NCBI GenBank assembly: GCA_003151115.1
Contig: PLWS01000006.1
Span: 151,755 to 215,754 of the forward strand
Length of the DNA: 64,000 nucleotides
Origin: Vulcanimicrobiota bacterium
Lineage (GTDB): Bacteria; Vulcanimicrobiota; Vulcanimicrobiia; Vulcanimicrobiales; Vulcanimicrobiaceae
Reading direction: 5' to 3'
Under the pieces are notes generated by a model. The model saw nothing but the letters and a program-made list of their open reading frames with translations, was not told the DNA's origin and searched no databases. A program made the position numbers and the translations under genes. Positions 18,004 through 27,024 of the stretch are shown here, in pieces; within the stretch, counting starts at the first letter, position 1; every line of letters begins with the position of its first letter.

Positions 18004-20583
18004 TTGACGCTTGTTAAGCTTAACGATCTGGGGGGCACCCGGCGGCTTGGGCGTGCCAGGCACGCCCTTATTATTGCGAGCTTTTTGGTAAGCGCATGCT
18101 CAGGGGCACATCACATGCCTCCGATGGCAAACGGCACAGCGACGCTTCAGACGCCGCAATCGATCTCGCCCGGCTCGATTGCAGCACCGCCGATGGCGCA
18201 GACTGCAATTCTTCCTTCCAGCGCGATGCGGTCACCTAGCAGTTCCGGCATCAAACCGATGAGCGCAATTCCAGGAATCAGCTACGCTCAAGTTCCCGGT
18301 ACGGCCATAGCAGCCTCAGCCGCGAGCGATGGCTCGTTATGGGTTCTTTCCGATTCGCCAAGCGGTGCGGACAAATACATCTGGCACTATAGTGATGGCA
18401 GCTGGACGAACATCACTGGACTGGCAAATCATATTAGTGCCGCCCCAGATGGGTCGCTTTACGCAAGCAACTCCCTCGGTGGCGTTTATCACTATGTCGG
18501 CGGAAGTTGGACAGCGTTGGGCGGTGGCGTCAGCGATATTACTGCGGCCTCTGGCAGTACTGTTTACGTGCTTTCAAATGGGCAGTCAATCGGTAGCGAT
18601 CAAGCGATCTGGTATTACAGCGGGAGCTGGTCGCAGATTCGGGGATCGGGCGTCCACATCGCCGCTTCATTAGACGCTGGGACGCATAGCATTCCGGCTG
18701 GCACTGTAGGGCCGAACGGTCTCTACGTCATCAATTCGAGTGGTTCCATTTATTACACGCAAGGCAACGGCAACTACATCCAAATTCCCGGTGCTTCCGC
18801 CGCAATCTCGCCGTCTACAACGGGGGGCGTGTTTGTTTTGGGATATCCTGCCGATGTATCGGGGACAGCGATCTATTATTACGACTTGGACAGCCCCGGC
18901 TGGCAGCAAATTGCCGGCAACGGTGTTGCAATCTCCGCGGCGGCATCGCAGCTTTATGTGATCTCCGCTTCAAACGCAATCTATTCGGCGCAGCTGGGGG
19001 GAATGGCGCATTTCACGCTTTCGGATCCGTATCCGTACTCGTCTACGTCAGTAAAGCCTCAGGACTTCTCACCCGCGACTGTCACGATGTCAATCGTAAT
19101 GAATGCGGTGACGCACACCTTTTCGATTTCGCCTAATTCGCCGAACTGCTCTGTGAGCGGCGGAAACATTGCATGCGCCATCGATGCCCCCGTACAGAAT
19201 GGACCGCTAACGTTCGCTGTTCAAACCTTTGATAGAACCGGCGCTGTCTTGACTCAGGTCAGCGGAAATGCGACCATCAGCGGCTTTACAACGATTCCGC
19301 TGGCGTTACAAGGCGTTTGGCACACCGCAACGGCCCGACTCAGCAATGCCCATCCGACGCTGGGCACATCTACGAATATCACCGTCAACGTTTCGGCATA
19401 TGATGCATCCGGCGCACTCATAGTTGGCCCCGAGCCATATAGCAGTCCGGTTCCACTGTACGATGCCGACGCCAGCGGTGCCACACAACTCTCCGCCACA
19501 TCCGTTACGTCGCCTACCCAAACCGTTACCCTGTCTTATAATGGCGCGCTTATAAATGCTGTCGTTTCGGCGGCAGTGCCGCCGTCGCAGGCATCCGGCC
19601 AGCAAGACACACTTATTCCAACAGCAGTGACGGCGGAGTATCCGATTCCGTCTGGAACGTACGCTGCGGCCAACGACGGCACCGGTACGATCTTTACGAA
19701 CAACGACGGCACGCTTTCTTTTCTTGAGAATGTGGCCGTCGGACACGTAACAACGGGCGGTGTTGTGACCGAAACCAAATTACCGTACTACGAGTACAGC
19801 ATCACCAAAGGCCCTGACGGCAATGTTTGGCTGATTTGTCAGAATGCGACGCGTTCTCTTACCGAGCTTGCACGTTTGAACGCGGACGGTACGCTCACGC
19901 AATTTCCGTTGCCCGACTTCGACAACACGCCTCTAACACTTGGCGCAGACGGCAATTTTTGGATGATATCGTATCCAAGCAGCGGGGTTGCAGCTATCGC
20001 CCGCCGCGTAACGCCAACCGGCGTCGTTTCGGACTTTCCTGTTAGCGGCGCTAACGGTATCAATTATCCGACTACCGGTCCGGATGGAAATGTTTGGTAC
20101 ACTGGGACGATCGGCACTTCATATGGTTTTATCAAGGTTACACTGGCCGGTCAGGCAACCGTCTATCCACTGCCTTCGAATGCGCAGCCCTGCTGCTCCC
20201 CGTCGCTCGCCGCTTTAGCGGCCGGGCCCGACGGGCGCATGTACAGCACTCTCCAACAGCAACGTGTGGGTTCCGTCGACTCGTCGGGCAATTTTTCAGA
20301 GCTCACGCCAAGCTTCTTTACCGTTCTCTGGAATCAAAGCTTCAGCGCCATGACGTTTGGCCCCGACAACGCGCTGTGGATCTCGTTAGGGTCCGCCGTC
20401 CCAGGAATATGTAATCCCGTTCTTGGGCACATGACCACAAGCGGATCGTTTGCGATGCTCGTATTGCCGAACTGCGCGCCAGCCGGTTCCATCCTTCCCC
20501 AACCTAATGCACTGGTAACCGGCCCTGATGGAAACTTATGGTATACTCGCGACCGATTTGTCGGGAAAGTCATTTTGCACTAA
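18004..20583 (+). CDS. large lipoprotein: tectonin-like propeller plus Vgb-like propeller
   Basis: An 859-residue predicted lipoprotein. The lipobox is LVSAC (C32 from TTG 18004). A linker with SPGSIAAPPMAQTAILP follows. Residues about 85-335 form a tectonin-like propeller (GSLWVLSD, IWHYSDGSW, VYVLSNGQ). After an Ig-like middle, the C-terminal 280 residues carry virginiamycin-B-lyase-like blades (GPDGNVWL, GADGNFWM, GPDGNVWYTG, GPDGNLWYTR). Vgb proper linearises streptogramin B, but many such propellers are not lyases. The start is uncertain: no ribosome site precedes TTG 18004, and a 19-bp palindrome sits within the leader codons. The N-terminal half is paralogous to the gene at 23073. Confidence 0.75.
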   Translation: MTLVKLNDLGGTRRLGRARHALIIASFLVSACSGAHHMPPMANGTATLQTPQSISPGSIAAPPMAQTAILPSSAMRSPSSSGIKPMSAIPGISYAQVPGTAIAASAASDGSLWVLSDSPSGADKYIWHYSDGSWTNITGLANHISAAPDGSLYASNSLGGVYHYVGGSWTALGGGVSDITAASGSTVYVLSNGQSIGSDQAIWYYSGSWSQIRGSGVHIAASLDAGTHSIPAGTVGPNGLYVINSSGSIYYTQGNGNYIQIPGASAAISPSTTGGVFVLGYPADVSGTAIYYYDLDSPGWQQIAGNGVAISAAASQLYVISASNAIYSAQLGGMAHFTLSDPYPYSSTSVKPQDFSPATVTMSIVMNAVTHTFSISPNSPNCSVSGGNIACAIDAPVQNGPLTFAVQTFDRTGAVLTQVSGNATISGFTTIPLALQGVWHTATARLSNAHPTLGTSTNITVNVSAYDASGALIVGPEPYSSPVPLYDADASGATQLSATSVTSPTQTVTLSYNGALINAVVSAAVPPSQASGQQDTLIPTAVTAEYPIPSGTYAAANDGTGTIFTNNDGTLSFLENVAVGHVTTGGVVTETKLPYYEYSITKGPDGNVWLICQNATRSLTELARLNADGTLTQFPLPDFDNTPLTLGADGNFWMISYPSSGVAAIARRVTPTGVVSDFPVSGANGINYPTTGPDGNVWYTGTIGTSYGFIKVTLAGQATVYPLPSNAQPCCSPSLAALAAGPDGRMYSTLQQQRVGSVDSSGNFSELTPSFFTVLWNQSFSAMTFGPDNALWISLGSAVPGICNPVLGHMTTSGSFAMLVLPNCAPAGSILPQPNALVTGPDGNLWYTRDRFVGKVILH
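18049..18067. repeat. 19-base palindrome in the signal-peptide region
   Basis: GGGCGTGCC-A-GGCACGCCC is a perfect inverted repeat around one central base, followed by TTATTATT. It looks like a terminator or REP-like hairpin, yet it lies inside the start region of the lipoprotein gene. There it could attenuate expression or hinder translation. Confidence 0.55.
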
Positions 20584-20646: not shown

Positions 20647-20693
20647 TGGTGGAGATGGGGGACTCGAACCCCCTACCCCTTACATGCGAAGCA
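20647..20693 (-). repeat. displaced tRNA-Ala 3' fragment (putative att site)
   Basis: On the minus strand this repeats the anticodon-loop-to-acceptor half of the complete tRNA-Ala at 25556-25628. It matches exactly over TGCTTCGCATGTAAGGGGT, then again through the T-loop, with one substitution and one single-base deletion. Unlike the complete gene it retains an encoded CCA end (TGG at 20647-20649). The 5' half of a tRNA is absent. The same orientation as the intact gene fits an attL/attR pair left by integration into the tRNA 3' end. Confidence 0.75.
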
Positions 20694-21005
20694 CAAAAGA
20701 CGGATCAAGCCGAACAAAACAGGACAACGAAAGCGGCGAGTGACGAGTGGCCGTGCCTGATCTCGTTCGCGCCCGTTCTGGGCGATTCGGACCAAATTGG
20801 CGGAACAATGGCGGAGTAAACAGCCGAACTCATCGGAGATCGACTAACGGTGCTGGATTACACGCCGAGCGAGATCACGACCGCACGATATCCGAGCGTC
20901 ATGGCAGTTAGATATCGTCACGGGACTTGGCAATCCGATCGCAATCACGGATGAAGGCGTGCCGCGCGTCTATCTCGATAATCCCGCGGGACGCAGGTGC
21001 TTGCG
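20694..21005. other. non-coding or decayed stretch beside the att-like repeat
   Basis: No convincing gene is visible. Short open frames across this stretch have no start signals. One frame ending just inside the next gene reads GLGNPIAITDEGVPRVYLDN, which looks protein-like but is unassignable and could be a relic of an integrated element's gene. Otherwise nothing is recognised. Confidence 0.4.
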
Positions 21006-22634
21006 CTATAAGAAGATGTTTCCGATCTCGACATTCGTCAGCGTTTCATAATAGTATGGCGGCGGCCCCGCAGAGTATCCGGGTGGATTGAGTTTCCCGC
21101 CCGGCGCGCATTCCGAACAGCCATCGCACGTGAGCGTGCGCTGCTCTGTGGGATTGATGAGAATGGGCGTCGCGCAGTTTGTTGTCTTGGGACTGGTCCA
21201 CACCGAGTTTTGGTGATAGAACGTGTCGAAGCCCACTGCGCACGCGTTCGCGGTACAGTTCGTGTACGCCACGCCGATCGCCGGCTGGGCGAAGATCGGT
21301 CGCGGATCGGGCGCCCAGCCGAAGCCCGTACCATTTCCTTTACCGTTGACGACCACGTTCGTCGCGGTGCAGTTGTCAAAGCCGATCGTCAGCCCCCACG
21401 CGCTGAATCCGGTCGCCTGCAAGTCTTGCGGATTGTTCGCGGTGATGTTGCTTGCCGAAGAATCCTTCACTGTGATGCCGACCCCATAGACCTCGACGCC
21501 CGTCGCCTTCGCGCCCGTGTTATACGGCGGTGGGCCGTCAACGATGGTGTCCGCGGTAAATCTCTCGACGCTAACCAGGCCGTCCAGAAACACCGAGAGG
21601 CCATGCACGTCATCACAACTCCCGGTCAAATTTAACGCAGAGCAATCGGAGTAGTTCAGGCTCAAACAGAGGATGGGACAGAATCCGAGTACCGTGTGTC
21701 CCGACCCTTTGATGTTGCCGCCGAATTGCGTTTTCAGATACTGCGCCGTGCAATTGCTCGTGTTCACATTGACCGATTTGATGCAGCTAAAGCCTATCAC
21801 GGCACCATCGAGGTTCTCGAGCAACCTGGTTTGGCAGTTGCTCACGCTGGCGCCTATCGTCGTGAGCAGAAAGATGCCCGCAGACGAATCCGCTTTCACC
21901 GTCATGTTCGTAATGTTGCAGTACGTGATTGCTACGTTGAGCGACTCGCTGACGAAGATGCCCGCCGGCGTTAGCAGGCGGATATTCAAATTCTGGATGC
22001 TCACCCCGGTGACGGTAACGTGCGAAATGTCCAGACCGCAGACGCCATCGGCGAAGATGCCATACTCCGTGGTATTGGCAATGGTCCCGTTAAAAATGTT
22101 GACGTTATCGAGCGCCGTGTTGGCGGAAGTTCCTACAAAAATGCCGGTGGTCTGCCAGGAAATATCCGGCACGGATGCCGTCAGCGTGTAGCCGCCCAAG
22201 TTCAGCGTCACATCGCTGCTGGCAATCGTAACCGCCGACGAGAGCGTGGCAGCAGGCGTCCACGTAAGGTCGCCGGCGAACGTGTATGTTCCGGGCAAGC
22301 GAATGACGATGCCCGAGGGTGGAATGCTCGTAATGATGTGGCTGAACTGCAGCTTTTGAGCGGACTGCTCGAAGTATCCCGCGTCATTACCTTTGAGCTT
22401 GTCGGCCCGATCGAAAAGCGCTGTGAGCGTTGCTTTGTCCAATGTGTTGAAAGCCGGATCGGAAAAAATTTGTTTGAAGTCGGGCAACGTCGCCAAGGTG
22501 GCGGCGCACGCTGAGGGACCGGCCGGTGGGGACGTGCTGCCGCCACAGGCCGCTAGCGCGCCGGTGGCAAGAATTCCGCCAAGGAGTTCGGCCCGCGTGA
22601 GATATTCTGGTCGGGTGCGCATCCATGATGTCAT
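21006..22634 (-). CDS. lipoprotein with right-handed parallel beta-helix
   Basis: A 542-residue predicted lipoprotein. The lipobox ATGALAAC ends at C30, followed by GGSTSPPAG. A helical segment (about residues 45-100) precedes a long repeat region of beta-helix rungs with N and I/V ladders (NVNIFNGTIANTTEYGIFAD, VAITYCNITNMTV, IGFDNCTATNVVV). This fold is shared by pectate lyases and polysaccharide-binding proteins, but no catalytic residues can be assigned. It is cysteine-rich for an exported protein (about 20 Cys). The gene sits inside the tRNA-Ala bracketed segment, divergent from a small ORF. Confidence 0.75.
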   Translation of the reverse strand: MTSWMRTRPEYLTRAELLGGILATGALAACGGSTSPPAGPSACAATLATLPDFKQIFSDPAFNTLDKATLTALFDRADKLKGNDAGYFEQSAQKLQFSHIITSIPPSGIVIRLPGTYTFAGDLTWTPAATLSSAVTIASSDVTLNLGGYTLTASVPDISWQTTGIFVGTSANTALDNVNIFNGTIANTTEYGIFADGVCGLDISHVTVTGVSIQNLNIRLLTPAGIFVSESLNVAITYCNITNMTVKADSSAGIFLLTTIGASVSNCQTRLLENLDGAVIGFSCIKSVNVNTSNCTAQYLKTQFGGNIKGSGHTVLGFCPILCLSLNYSDCSALNLTGSCDDVHGLSVFLDGLVSVERFTADTIVDGPPPYNTGAKATGVEVYGVGITVKDSSASNITANNPQDLQATGFSAWGLTIGFDNCTATNVVVNGKGNGTGFGWAPDPRPIFAQPAIGVAYTNCTANACAVGFDTFYHQNSVWTSPKTTNCATPILINPTEQRTLTCDGCSECAPGGKLNPPGYSAGPPPYYYETLTNVEIGNIFL

Positions 22635-22715
22635 CGGCGTATTTCTCCGGCATGGCCAAGAAACTCATCGGCTAGCGCACCTGTCGGCGTTGAAAAACCT
22701 AAGCTAAGGCCGAAA

Positions 22716-22742
22716 GATGCATCCTTAAATGAGCGATGCATC
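22716..22742. promoter_or_regulatory. paired GATGCATC palindromes in divergent spacer
   Basis: Two copies of the self-complementary octamer GATGCATC (22716-22723 and 22735-22742) lie 19 bases apart, flanking the ATG at 22729. They stand between the beta-helix lipoprotein and the small ORF. The spacing is close to two helical turns, so they could form a dimer-of-dimers operator. No regulator is known. Confidence 0.3.
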
Positions 22743-22965
22743 ACGTTCCTTCGCGTACGTCAATCAACATCAGGATCCCTTCGCCACGCTTTATCGTGTA
22801 GCTCTCCGTATCGGCGCCCGCAAAGGCGAGTTGCTAGCGCTCCGCGTTAACGACAGATCAGTGGCCATTTCGAGGCGCACATCGCAAATATTTACGATGC
22901 TACTAGAAGTGGCGCACCAAGAAAGCATCGCTTCGATAATAGCTTCTAAGCTCAAACGTAACTAA
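22729..22965 (+). CDS. small ORF, recombinase-box or winged-helix fragment
   Basis: A 78-residue frame. Its middle, ALRIGARKGELLALRVNDR, resembles box I of tyrosine recombinases (xLxTGxRxGELLALRWxD), which would fit the flanking att-like repeats. However, the following helix-rich SVAISRRTSQIFTMLLEVA fits the N-terminal part of an OmpR or BTAD-type winged helix at least as well. No catalytic RHRY set is present, so at best it is a remnant. There is no strong ribosome site. It may not be expressed. Confidence 0.35.
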   Translation: MSDASRSFAYVNQHQDPFATLYRVALRIGARKGELLALRVNDRSVAISRRTSQIFTMLLEVAHQESIASIIASKLKRN

Positions 22966-23046
22966 ACCGTGCGGGAAGGGCCTTTTTTAAGCCGAAAAGA
23001 AGGGGCAACAAAAGATCCGCACCTCTAAGAAGGTGGGGAGCTGCGC

Positions 23047-23066
23047 TTTTTTTTTGGGGGGGGGGG
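23047..23066 (+). promoter_or_regulatory. T9-G11 homopolymer tract just upstream of a surface lipoprotein
   Basis: Nine T (23047-23055) run directly into eleven G (23056-23066), ending six bases before ATG 23073. The G tract occupies the ribosome-binding position. Length changes by slipped-strand mispairing would alter spacing or promoter geometry, as in phase-variable surface genes of other bacteria. Confidence 0.6.
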
Positions 23067-23072
23067 ACGACC

Positions 23073-25259
23073 ATGATTGCTTTCGTTAGAAAGTACGCGC
23101 CGCGCGCTTTGGGCTTTGCCGCATTTGTAGCACTTGCGGCTTGCTCTTCGCATGGGATCGCGCCGACGTCGTCGGGACCGAAGGTAATTCCGATGACGCC
23201 GACCTCGGTTTCCCCCGGTAAAATTCAGGCACCGCCGATGGCAAAACCGGCAATCGTACCGATGGACACCAACGTAAAACCGAACGACGCGATTGGGTCT
23301 CCGTTCTGGCAACCGATTCCCGGAACGGGGTCGTTTGCAGCCGCGGGTACCGATGGCTCACTTTGGGTGCTTTCAGATCAGCCGGCCGGTTCCGATAAGT
23401 TCATCTATCACTTTGTGAACGGCGTCTGGACACAAGCCGCGGGCACGGCTACGCGTTTGGCGGTAGGACCGAATAATACACTGTATGCCATCAATTCCGG
23501 CGGCGGCGCCTACCAATATAATTCCGGCACAAATACTTTTACGCCGCTCGGTGGCGGTTGTAGCGATATAACCGTCGCGAGCGACGGATCGGTCTACGTG
23601 CTGTCCAATGGCAACGCTCCGGGAAGCGACCAGGCCATTTGGCACTACATCAATGGCGGCTGGACGCAAGCCGCCGGCTCGGGTGTTCGCATTGCCGGCA
23701 ATTGGGACCCGCAAACCTACACCCTGAACAATGGCGGCGGGACGATCGCTGCCGGCGGCTTGTATATCGTGAACTCTTTGGGCGCGATCTATTACGAGAA
23801 TACATCCCAAGCGTTTGCACTTCTTCCGGGGCAAGCTTCCAGCATCGCTCCGACGAGTAGCAGCGGCCTCTATGTCCTCGGTGCAACCGCCGGCTCGGGC
23901 GGATATCCGATCTTTTATTTCGATCTGGATGCCCAGAGCTACGGAAGCCCGCTCGGATCGGCTGTTAACATCAGCACTGATACGATCAATCTCTATGCGG
24001 TCGGCACTGCGGGTGGCCTTTACTACACGAACCGGAACTCGAAGGACACGCTGACGCTTCGAGTCGTCAACAATTCGGGCATAACCCCGGCGTATGTGAC
24101 GATCATCGGTCTGAACGGCACCGATAATACGGACACGTCCCGCTACCATGTTACCGCTTCAGGACAAGCGGTGAAATTCGCAAGCGGGGATTTCACCTCC
24201 ATTAACGGTGGCGCGCAAGGAACAACGACGAGCTACAACATTCCGCTATCTCCGGGGTTGACGATGCCGCTGCCATATTTGAAGTCTGCACGTATTTTCA
24301 TCAGCCTTGGAGCCCCATTTATTACAGTTGCAAATCTCTCCGACCTGAGTTGGGCAAGCCCGGATGATTGGGGTACGGCAACGGATCCGAACTTTAATAT
24401 TCTGAACGACTTCATAGAATTCAACTATCAGATCAATCCAGATACGCATCGATCGCAGCTTTTCGCGAACCTCACTCAGGTCGACATGTTGAGCATTCCG
24501 ATGCAGCAAATAGTGACCGGCTCGACTCATGGGACCCAAACCACCGGCATTCAGCCGAATTCACGGGCAGCGATCATGAACGCCCTCTTGGCCGATCCGA
24601 ACTTTTCGGTGCTCGTCATTAATAAAACCGCAACCGGCACGAGTGTATCTCCGCTACGCGCGATTTCGGTAAAGCATGCACTCTACAATACCGATCACAG
24701 TTTACCGAATGTCCCGCACTGGGCAAACATGTCGTATTTCGACAACTACATCAGTGCGGTCTGGACTTTTTACAAATCGCACACCTTGACGCTCTACACC
24801 AGTGGGTTTGGGACGTATACCGGTACAGTGAATTCAGCGAACCAATTCGTATTCTCGCAGGCCGGCAAACCGGACGTCGTCTTTCCGGTTCCTACCAGCG
24901 AGGACGCGCTGACTGGAACCGGACAGATGGTTTCGCTACCTTGCGGTGGCTGGTCAGGCGTCCTCTTCGATGCCTGCAAAGAGCTCGTAAGTATGCTGAG
25001 CGCCGGAATCAACCGCTCTTCCCTGTTGTTGGACCAATCGGTTTCACGCAACGCTAGTCATCCCTGCAATCTCGCACCGTTCTACACAACGACGCCGACC
25101 AATCTGTATTCGCAGATTCTGCACAAGTATAGTGCGCCGACTGTGCAGGCACCGGGCGGAGCCGCCTATGGGTTCGATTACGATGACGTTTGCGATCAAA
25201 GTTCAACCTTAGCCGACGATAGCCCAACAGCTTGGTCGATTACGATCGAACCGTTCTAA
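23073..25259 (+). CDS. lipoprotein: tectonin-like propeller fused to GH64-type beta-1,3-glucanase
   Basis: A 728-residue predicted lipoprotein. The signal ends at LAAC (C24), followed by linker SPGKIQAPPMAKPAIVP. Residues about 75-320 form a propeller (GSLWVLSD, VYVLSNGN, IWHYINGGW) paralogous to that of the 18004 gene. From about 325 the sequence matches GH64/thaumatin-like laminaripentaose-producing beta-1,3-glucanases. It has LRVVNNSG, DFIEFNY with candidate acid E449, LTQVDMLSIPM with candidate D471, NLYSQILHKYS and the C-terminal YGFDYDDVCDQSS. It would degrade fungal or algal beta-1,3-glucan at the cell surface. The gene lies between the tRNA-Ala repeats. Confidence 0.8.
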   Translation: MIAFVRKYAPRALGFAAFVALAACSSHGIAPTSSGPKVIPMTPTSVSPGKIQAPPMAKPAIVPMDTNVKPNDAIGSPFWQPIPGTGSFAAAGTDGSLWVLSDQPAGSDKFIYHFVNGVWTQAAGTATRLAVGPNNTLYAINSGGGAYQYNSGTNTFTPLGGGCSDITVASDGSVYVLSNGNAPGSDQAIWHYINGGWTQAAGSGVRIAGNWDPQTYTLNNGGGTIAAGGLYIVNSLGAIYYENTSQAFALLPGQASSIAPTSSSGLYVLGATAGSGGYPIFYFDLDAQSYGSPLGSAVNISTDTINLYAVGTAGGLYYTNRNSKDTLTLRVVNNSGITPAYVTIIGLNGTDNTDTSRYHVTASGQAVKFASGDFTSINGGAQGTTTSYNIPLSPGLTMPLPYLKSARIFISLGAPFITVANLSDLSWASPDDWGTATDPNFNILNDFIEFNYQINPDTHRSQLFANLTQVDMLSIPMQQIVTGSTHGTQTTGIQPNSRAAIMNALLADPNFSVLVINKTATGTSVSPLRAISVKHALYNTDHSLPNVPHWANMSYFDNYISAVWTFYKSHTLTLYTSGFGTYTGTVNSANQFVFSQAGKPDVVFPVPTSEDALTGTGQMVSLPCGGWSGVLFDACKELVSMLSAGINRSSLLLDQSVSRNASHPCNLAPFYTTTPTNLYSQILHKYSAPTVQAPGGAAYGFDYDDVCDQSSTLADDSPTAWSITIEPF

Positions 25260-25555
25260 GGAGCAAACCGGGTGATTGTTGGTAGCGCCAACCGGAATCG
25301 AAACCGCGGGCCAGTTCATAGCATCCATATGGATTGCCATGGGCTCGGTGAGGAGCGCAGGATCACGCCGAGGACTTCTCACCACGCTCTACATCTCGCC
25401 CTCGTCTTAACGGACGCACATCCGCGGTGCATCGGCTCGCATCGCAACATGCTTGAGCATGCCAGGGCACGGCGTGCCGTGCCCCGAGCGGAAGAGGAAC
25501 CGCCGGACCGCAAGTTCGGAGCGCGGTACCGAGCGCAAAACGGGCTCTAGATTTG
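25260..25555. other. intergenic stretch with hairpins, no convincing gene
   Basis: No gene is supported. A 92-codon open frame here is rich in His and Arg and lacks a start signal. The stretch holds a CATGC/GCATG hairpin (25449-25462) followed by a perfect 20-base palindrome (25465-25484). These may close transcription of the glucanase gene. Confidence 0.5.
25465..25484. repeat. 20-base palindrome, REP-like
   Basis: GGGCACGGC-GT-GCCGTGCCC is a perfect inverted repeat without a following U tract. It shares the CGTGCC/GGCACG core with the 18049-18067 palindrome. Confidence 0.5.
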
Positions 25556-25628
25556 TGGAGATGGGGGGACTCGAACCCCCGACCCCTTACATGCGAAGCA
25601 AGTGCTCTACCAGCTGAGCTACATCCCC
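25556..25628 (-). tRNA. tRNA-Ala (anticodon CGC)
   Basis: A complete 73-nt cloverleaf: acceptor GGGGATG/CATCTCC with the alanine identity pair G3:U70, D-arm GCTC/GAGC, anticodon stem CTTGC/GTAAG with loop TTCGCAT, five-base variable loop and T-arm GGGGG-TTCGAGT-CCCCC. The anticodon CGC reads GCG. CCA is not encoded: the genome reads CAA after the discriminator A. The displaced fragment at 20647 does encode CCA. Confidence 0.97.
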
Positions 25629-25735: not shown

Positions 25736-26119
25736 ATGCGAGCCGCCTACGCCACCAGACCGCGCGAACAGGTCTCGGCCGTGCTGCGGCGCGAGAAGCG
25801 GTACCTTTCCGCGGCTGAAATTCACGCCATTTTGCGCAAATCGCGCGCGAACGTGTCGCTTTCCACGGTGTACCGGACCCTGGATCTCCTTGCCGGCAAG
25901 GGCGAGGCGAGCGCGCGCGTAGACGAGCGCGGCGAGGCGACGTTCGTCGTCTGCGACCAGTCGCACCACCATCACGCGGTCTGCAACACCTGCGGAAAAG
26001 TCGAGGACGTTTCGTGCGAGGCGATCGAAAGCGTCGCCAACGCGTTGCGTTCCCACCACGGTTTCAAACTCGCCGATCACGAGATGGAGTTTTTCGGAAC
26101 GTGCGGAGCGTGCAGATGA
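25736..26119 (+). CDS. Fur-family metalloregulator (Zur/Fur type)
   Basis: A 127-residue metal-sensing repressor. The winged helix (residues 10-60) has LSAAEIHAIL and the recognition helix VSLSTVYRTLDLL. The dimerisation domain has the histidine cluster SHHHHAVC, and structural zinc ligands C83/C86 and C123/C126 (TCGACR end). It heads an operon with an ABC importer, and its stop overlaps the binding-protein start (ATGA), so it probably represses that importer. The metal (zinc, manganese or iron) cannot be fixed from sequence; zinc is favoured by the transporter family. Confidence 0.9.
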   Translation: MRAAYATRPREQVSAVLRREKRYLSAAEIHAILRKSRANVSLSTVYRTLDLLAGKGEASARVDERGEATFVVCDQSHHHHAVCNTCGKVEDVSCEAIESVANALRSHHGFKLADHEMEFFGTCGACR

Positions 26120-27024
26120 AAGGCGCGTCGTTATTTCTTGTTGCTTTGCTTGGTGCGTGCGGGGCCTCGACAAGCTCGGCCGTGGTTCGACAGGCTCACC
26201 ATGACAATACCGTAACCGGCCAAAACAATACATCGGCAATACGCGTCGTAACGACGTTTTCGACGCTGAATTCTTTTGTCGAAGCCGTCGGCGGTTCATA
26301 TGTGACGGTGCACAACCTCGTGCCGATCGGCGCGTCGCCCGAGACGTATCAACCCACGCCGCAAGATATCACAACCTTGGCCGACGCGCAGCTTCTCGTC
26401 GAGAACGGAACCGGAATCGAAGTTTGGCTTCAGCACACGATTTCGACAGCGAGCAATCCCAATCTACGCATCCTCATCCTCTCTGACGGGCTGAAGCACA
26501 TCGACCATAATCCGCACCTTTGGATGGACCCGGTACTCGCCGGGTTGTACGTCGGTAAAGTTGCGCGCGCGCTCAGCCTGATGGATCCGCCACACACGGC
26601 CGACTATCAACGCAATGCGGCAGCGTACCAGCAGAAGTTGGTCGCTTTGCAAAATGAAATCGCGAAATCGATCGCGACCATTCCGCCGCAACGCCGGACG
26701 ATGATCGTCTTCCATAATGCCTGGCAATACTACAACGACCGGTTCGGCATCCGGACGATAGGCGTCATTGAAGTCTCGCCGGGGCAAGAACCCAACCCCG
26801 CTTACATCGCGAGCCTTGTCGACCTCGCGCGCAAAAACAACGTTCGCGCGGTTTTCTCCGAACCTGAATACAGCCCGAAGATCGCGCAAGCGCTAGCCAA
26901 GAGTGCCGGCATTCGAACCGTCAGCGATCTCTACGACGACTCGATCGCTAACAACGCGCTCGTCCACGATTACATCAGCATGCTGCGATATGACACGGGA
27001 GTGATCGTACGGGCTCTGCGGTGA
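26116..27024 (+). CDS. metal ABC transporter substrate-binding lipoprotein (ZnuA/TroA family)
   Basis: A 302-residue cluster A-I solute-binding protein. The lipobox ends at C15 (VALLGAC). Two lobes are joined by a long helix. Ligand positions read: E76 in GASPETYQPTP, where the family normally has His; H134 in NPHLWMDP; H200 in VFHNAWQYY; D275 in DLYDDS. The swap of the first His for Glu may change metal preference. Residues about 16-32 (including VVRQAHHD) are encoded by copies of a dispersed repeat, expanding the linker after the lipid anchor. ATGA and GTGA overlaps join it to its neighbours. Confidence 0.92.
   Translation: MKGASLFLVALLGACGASTSSAVVRQAHHDNTVTGQNNTSAIRVVTTFSTLNSFVEAVGGSYVTVHNLVPIGASPETYQPTPQDITTLADAQLLVENGTGIEVWLQHTISTASNPNLRILILSDGLKHIDHNPHLWMDPVLAGLYVGKVARALSLMDPPHTADYQRNAAAYQQKLVALQNEIAKSIATIPPQRRTMIVFHNAWQYYNDRFGIRTIGVIEVSPGQEPNPAYIASLVDLARKNNVRAVFSEPEYSPKIAQALAKSAGIRTVSDLYDDSIANNALVHDYISMLRYDTGVIVRALR
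26165..26206. repeat. dispersed TTCGACxxGCTC-type repeat inside the binding-protein gene
   Basis: Two adjacent copies, CCTCGACAAGCTCGG and GGTTCGACAGGCTCACCATGAC, encode part of the post-lipobox linker in frame. Related copies occur at 34749-34775 and 43676-43704. Confidence 0.6.

Follow-up and report, generated by a model that had tools for sequence, protein, structure and literature searches.

The window analysed here, a stretch of 64 kb taken as a whole, contains a single tRNA gene according to ARAGORN: tRNA-Ala(CGC) on the minus strand at 25555–25628. A second copy of the 3' half of this tRNA lies about 5 kb away, and two large lipoprotein genes are enclosed between the two. How did the half come to be displaced, and did the enclosed genes arrive with it? 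We propose that the segment is a decayed, integrase-less remnant of a site-specific integrative element resembling a CIME, with a probability of roughly 0.87.

The features of the locus are the following (window coordinates, strand, description, basis).

18004–20583, plus strand: second tectonin/Vgb-propeller lipoprotein, just outside the half (domain scan, sister comparison)
20647–20693, minus strand: displaced tRNA-Ala 3' half (attR); CCA is encoded, one base is substituted and one deleted (sequence alignment)
20694–20822, minus strand: conserved element arm (attP left arm) with TTCCGCCAATTT (sister-genome alignment, arm search)
21006–22634, minus strand: beta-helix lipoprotein, cargo, 542 amino acids, LAAC lipobox (ORF, domain scan, sister comparison)
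22729–22962, plus strand: tyrosine-recombinase remnant oriented toward the tRNA, with box I LYRVALRIGARKGELLALRVND (custom HMM, E = 1.4e-5)
23073–25259, plus strand: lipoprotein with a tectonin propeller and a GH64 beta-1,3-glucanase domain, cargo (Pfam, solved GH64 structures)
25529–25554, minus strand: right-arm stub, about 24 bp common to sister genome G006, then unrelated sequence (alignment)
25555–25628, minus strand: intact tRNA-Ala(CGC), the integration target (ARAGORN, sister-genome alignment)
25736–26119, plus strand: Fur-family regulator, a conserved neighbour on the chromosome that served as anchor and as dS reference (domain scan, sister comparison)

The displaced tRNA half and the enclosed genes

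The half aligns over 20649–20693 with positions 29–74 of the tRNA at 95.7% identity (E = 6e-15); its lower coordinate is 20647 when the encoded CCA is counted. The ungapped core matches tRNA-Ala at 36 of 37 bases, while the T/acceptor arm carries one substitution and has lost one C, the displaced half reading CTCCACCA versus CTCCACAAA in the intact gene. An earlier note on this DNA had described a duplicated 3' half in the same orientation, with 19 exact bases and an encoded CCA, and all of this is correct, the 19 bases lying within the ungapped core. A tRNA-integrated genomic island is expected to repeat the tRNA 3' end directly, in the same orientation, at its far side, as is the case here. 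Elsewhere in the same genome only weak matches to the half are found outside 20649–20693 and the tRNA-Ala itself.

The sizeable genes between the half and the tRNA encode the beta-helix and the tectonin/GH64 lipoproteins. The former has a pectate-lyase-like domain match that stays below threshold. The GH64 domain of the latter is recognized by Pfam with E = 1.9e-58, and alignment with solved GH64 enzymes places the E and D of the FIE...TxVD region in the window protein. These residues, which we take to be the catalytic acid pair, together with the domain itself are what is expected of a GH64 member. From this domain it is plausible that the cargo serves extracellular glucan use. The enclosed genes agree with the earlier inventory of a beta-helix lipoprotein, a propeller-GH64 lipoprotein and a recombinase remnant near 22.8 kb, with no intact integrase.

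The GC content is 56.2% in the segment versus 61.0% in the window. The low-GC stretch reaches left to about 18 kb, across the second tectonin/Vgb lipoprotein (18004–20583), and the variable region therefore exceeds the segment between half and tRNA. A homologue of this second lipoprotein, 89% identical, is found on the same side of a half in sister genome G004, and the gene is probably older island content.

A conserved arm and tandem arrays in sister genomes

Six other members of the genus were compared, and in all of them tRNA-Ala(CGC) adjoins fur and znuA. One of these (G001) has neither half nor arm while the neighbouring genes are in place, and provides the insertion-free relative expected of an island locus; there, the neighbouring w15624 stops about 1.1 kb short of the tRNA, and the gap holds an unrelated gene of 368 amino acids. 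Where halves are present, the same arm of about 127 bp (20694–20822 in the window) lies upstream of each of them, directly at the anticodon-stem breakpoint. The sister copies of the arm are 85–92% identical to that of the window, and the sequence further inside varies by element. Half and arm occur together once in the window, three times in G002 (two downstream of the tRNA and one on contig L074) and twice each in G004 and G006.

A search of 118 genomes with the arm alone returned exactly eight copies, all of them half-associated and confined to four genomes of the genus. No other full copy was found in these 118 genomes, the remaining matches being about 24–54 bases long with E above 6e-4. 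Seven sister tRNA-Ala halves with the same flank, and no further full copy in the 118 genomes, rule out chance. The half-linked arm is the signature of an element family with a common attP, unlike the outcome of random duplication. Duplication can generate tRNA fragments, and it is on this general ground that the half could be seen as a by-product of ordinary segmental duplication, or as a chance tRNA-like fragment, with no integration at all. However, all copies break at the anticodon stem and are joined to a conserved flank; moreover, the fragments are found downstream of the tRNA, oriented as it is, and the segments that they delimit contain recombinase remnants. We give this explanation practically no credence.

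Two of the sister genomes carry tandem arrays at the tRNA. In G002, the order from the tRNA is an element E2 (1.6 kb, with one 485-amino-acid gene), arm and half, an element E1 (GH64-type lipoprotein and beta-helix genes), arm and half, and then chromosomal genes. In G006, E1 with its arm and half comes first, then the 1.07-kb element E3, which has a DUF4760 gene and is again followed by arm and half, and then an S66 peptidase; this array is spread over two contigs with the break inside the beta-helix gene. In G004, E2 adjoins the tRNA and an E1 end is found on a separate contig. The beta-helix gene adjoins the arm in the window, in both strains of G002, in G004 and in G006. The G002 assembly holds two versions of the locus on different contigs (L059 and L074); it is listed as 7% contaminated, and two strains are likely.

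This comparison backs the earlier proposal of integration into the tRNA 3' end with the old half pushed to the far end, and the 3' half of the intact tRNA-Ala (25555–25600) would be the one donated by the element. The idea of one integrated 5-kb segment holds in so far as a decayed integrated element is concerned, but this element is not isolated: it is one of an arm-sharing family that forms tandems, and the variable region is larger.

The motif TTCCGCCAATTT in the left arm and its counterparts GTCCGCCATTTT/GTCCGCCAATTT in the G005 and G002 right arms are read here as candidate integrase arm sites. A pattern search for a partner integrase with the tandem arm motifs returned only G005 itself. 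No complete parent element with the 127-bp arm was found among the 118 genomes searched with it, and neither the exact arm–half pattern nor relatives of the beta-helix protein were found in viral contigs.

Elements with other arms use the same tRNA in other genera of the family. Intact integrases are located next to the tRNA or next to a half in G018, G020 and G023; in G023 the 3' end of the integrase gene adjoins tRNA-Ala. In G016 (L069 2431–6720), a broken integrase and two more halves, whose arm is a different one, lie beyond an intact tRNA-Ala; we interpret this as an array built up by independent accretion on this tRNA in another genus. In G018 (C6:1476290–1546431), the intact tRNA-Ala is followed some 70 kb further downstream by a tRNA-Ala half of the same orientation with an intact 391-amino-acid integrase, possibly a large complete element at the same site.

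Remnants of a tyrosine recombinase

To the extent that an integrase is still recognizable at the locus, it is in pieces. A custom HMM built from 23 integrases of the lineage was run on six-frame translations. Its best match in the window (E = 1.4e-5) is the frame at 22729–22962, which covers the box-I arginine region, in line with the earlier suggestion of a recombinase remnant in a segment devoid of an intact integrase. In G002, the frame RFGHSSIKVTADTYAHL matches the box-II region (E = 0.0012) at most about 220 bp from the att site. A C-terminal integrase piece that is 83% identical occupies the same place in G005, and a short matching C-terminal piece is present in G006. The recombinase expected near the att site of a tRNA-integrated island is thus found as a remnant only, box I in the window and box II in G002. 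In the window and in G006, a GH64-type gene sits between the box-I piece and the att site. The positions of the remnants in the window, G002, G005 and G006 indicate that the integrase read toward the tRNA, like the intact integrase of G023, and the element once encoded a tyrosine recombinase. Against this identification stands that Pfam PF00589 gives no match at the locus and that hmmscan of the remnants is also negative; the Pfam integrase model misses the remnants, and it took the custom HMM to detect them.

The encoded CCA

The presence of CCA in the fragment and its absence from the intact gene had been taken as a sign of integration. This is not diagnostic, since the element-free G001 also has no encoded CCA: its tRNA-Ala(CGC) ends in CACAAA, as do most tRNA-Ala(CGC) genes of the genus. 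The empty tRNA-Ala site with encoded CCA that had been predicted finds no support. Encoded CCA is mixed among the tRNAs of the window's own genome. Among the displaced halves, CACAAA is found in the outermost ones of G002 and G006 and in that of L074, and CACCA in those of the window, G004 and the inner one of G002. Because the halves vary in this way, the CCA of a half records the allele that was resident before that insertion, and the mixture supports independent insertions.

Synonymous divergence and movement between species

The beta-helix gene of the window differs from its counterparts in G006, G002, G004 and the second G002 version (L074) by a dS of 0.04–0.12. For the fur, znuA and ABC genes of the flanks, dS between the window and G002, G006 and G004 is 0.62–1.2, and higher in some other pairs; likewise, the E2 cargo has a dS of 0.31 versus 2.1 for fur. 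Two ORFs (w12914 and w10117) were excluded as references, since one has a dN above its dS and the other an erratic dS, which suggests a wrong frame. Constraint is an unlikely cause of the low values, since the beta-helix homologue of G003 has a dS of 1.4 and synonymous sites in this gene therefore do diverge. With a beta-helix dS of 0.04–0.12 compared with 0.6 to above 1 for fur and znuA, the sequences indicate that the elements spread later than the species split. Identity is high over the entire beta-helix gene and falls at both of its edges, and homologous exchange may therefore contribute.

The GH64-type partner is more variable and mosaic. The G006 gene has a tectonin N-terminus like the propeller proteins of the window and a GH64 part that is 71% identical to that of G002, while the GH64 gene of the window is a distant homologue.

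These values bear on a further explanation, in which the element inserted a single time, long ago, in the ancestor of the genus and has since been passed on vertically, decaying where it stood without moving again. It would account for several species having the same tRNA, arm and beta-helix gene, and the integrase debris in each examined E1 copy suggests old decay. Yet cargo dS lies about 5–25 times below chromosomal dS, the displaced halves carry different alleles (CACAAA or CACCA), the genes beyond the half differ among genomes, and the arm is common to tandem units with different cargo. We consider strictly vertical descent improbable. Transfer between species would rather have occurred through movement of the elements, possibly with homologous exchange.

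A more serious contender, although still an unlikely one, is that the small elements form an active non-autonomous class with minimal att ends and one or two lipoprotein genes, which an integrase from elsewhere in the genome or from a passing element would mobilize in trans. The 1.07-kb and 1.6-kb elements share one arm, differ in cargo and have no recognizable integrase gene, the between-species cargo dS is low, and phage-type integrases are encoded elsewhere in the window's own genome (C6:622161, C1:57685 and C1:1642). On the other hand, the pattern search turned up no integrase whose arm motifs match, most of the right arm is missing from the window copy, and the integrase debris in the E1 copies fits decayed autonomous parents. 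It is doubtful that a genus-wide pool of tiny integrase-less elements with one att arm is still at work at tRNA-Ala, moving and exchanging genes for surface lipoproteins and glucanases among Eremiobacterota species through an integrase acting in trans.

Proposed course of events and relation to known elements

In the reading that we prefer, a decayed integrative element, an element with a tRNA-Ala 3' half beside its attachment arm would have recombined with tRNA-Ala(CGC) at the anticodon-loop end. The half that it brought would have completed the tRNA, and the resident half would have been shifted to 20647–20693, joined to the arm at 20694–20822. A tyrosine recombinase presumably made each insertion. 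The original integrase gene, directed toward the tRNA, would later have been broken into pieces, leaving the two surface lipoproteins as cargo, with the GH64-lipoprotein gene between the box-I fragment and the att site. With an integrase fragment, a right arm reduced to about 24 bp beside a complete left arm, and an indel in the half, the window copy is probably immobile now.

The location of the beta-helix gene in G003 stands somewhat against a strict link between gene and element. There, a beta-helix gene that is 55% identical starts 28 bp from tRNA-Ala (L065 16818–18416) without arm or half. The gene family may sit at this locus also without the element, and its link to the locus may predate or outlive the latter.

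A remnant of this kind with tandem accretion is a known kind of thing, and its mechanism is textbook. CIMEs have lost integration and transfer genes, have kept their att sites, accumulate in tandem at one target and are formed by decay and accretion (PMC5704250). Here too att sites and cargo are kept, the recombinase is lost and several units are stacked at one target: attL and attR are retained as half and tRNA, no intact integrase is present, and the right arm is truncated in the window. The tandem arrays at tRNA-Ala would fit a CIME that is mobilized in cis once it has accreted to an element with an integrase. In contrast to CIMEs, the units here measure only 1.1–5 kb and carry surface-lipoprotein cargo. 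The scanned ORFs include no conjugation gene, and neither a conjugation nor a relaxase gene was found in the small units. As the parent could be an ICE, an IME, a phage or a satellite, we call the locus CIME-like and do not file it as a CIME.

The duplicated tRNA 3' end, the lower GC content and the recombinase remnant are shared with tRNA-integrated genomic islands, but the elements here are very small and no copy of the arm family has an intact integrase. Tycheposons, described for Prochlorococcus with sizes of 4–200 kb, are islands that are likewise anchored at a tRNA and carry a tyrosine recombinase along with adaptive cargo (PMC10872708). Compared by description, the present elements differ in having no intact recombinase and in that some units are only 1.1–1.6 kb; the complete tyrosine recombinase expected beside the tRNA is absent from the window. 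No relevant account of such elements in Eremiobacterota came up in a literature search. The matched ends, tandem copies and cross-species dS show how this uncultured phylum gains and swaps large extracellular lipoproteins, and the att site, defined by tRNA-Ala CGC together with the arm (20694–20822), offers a handle for tracking its mobile elements in metagenomes.

Other features of the locus

In G004 (L096 6493–10891), tectonin-type propeller lipoproteins like that at 18004–20583 of the window are encoded in tandem, with similar N-terminal parts and different C-terminal domains, which suggests that the surface lipoproteins undergo domain shuffling. Upstream of the GH64 lipoprotein, a T9–G11 homopolymer tract (23047–23066) ends 6 bp before the start codon. 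It is the only such run in the 64-kb window, is absent at the homologous G006 site, and is a candidate slippage site for phase variation of the surface protein. Finally, a dispersed repeat with the core GTTCGACAGGCTCACCATGACAAT lies at 26162–26206, within the znuA frame, after the signal/lipobox region and ahead of the ZnuA domain. The repeat has 21 copies in its own genome at up to three mismatches, and 16–32 in five sister genomes.
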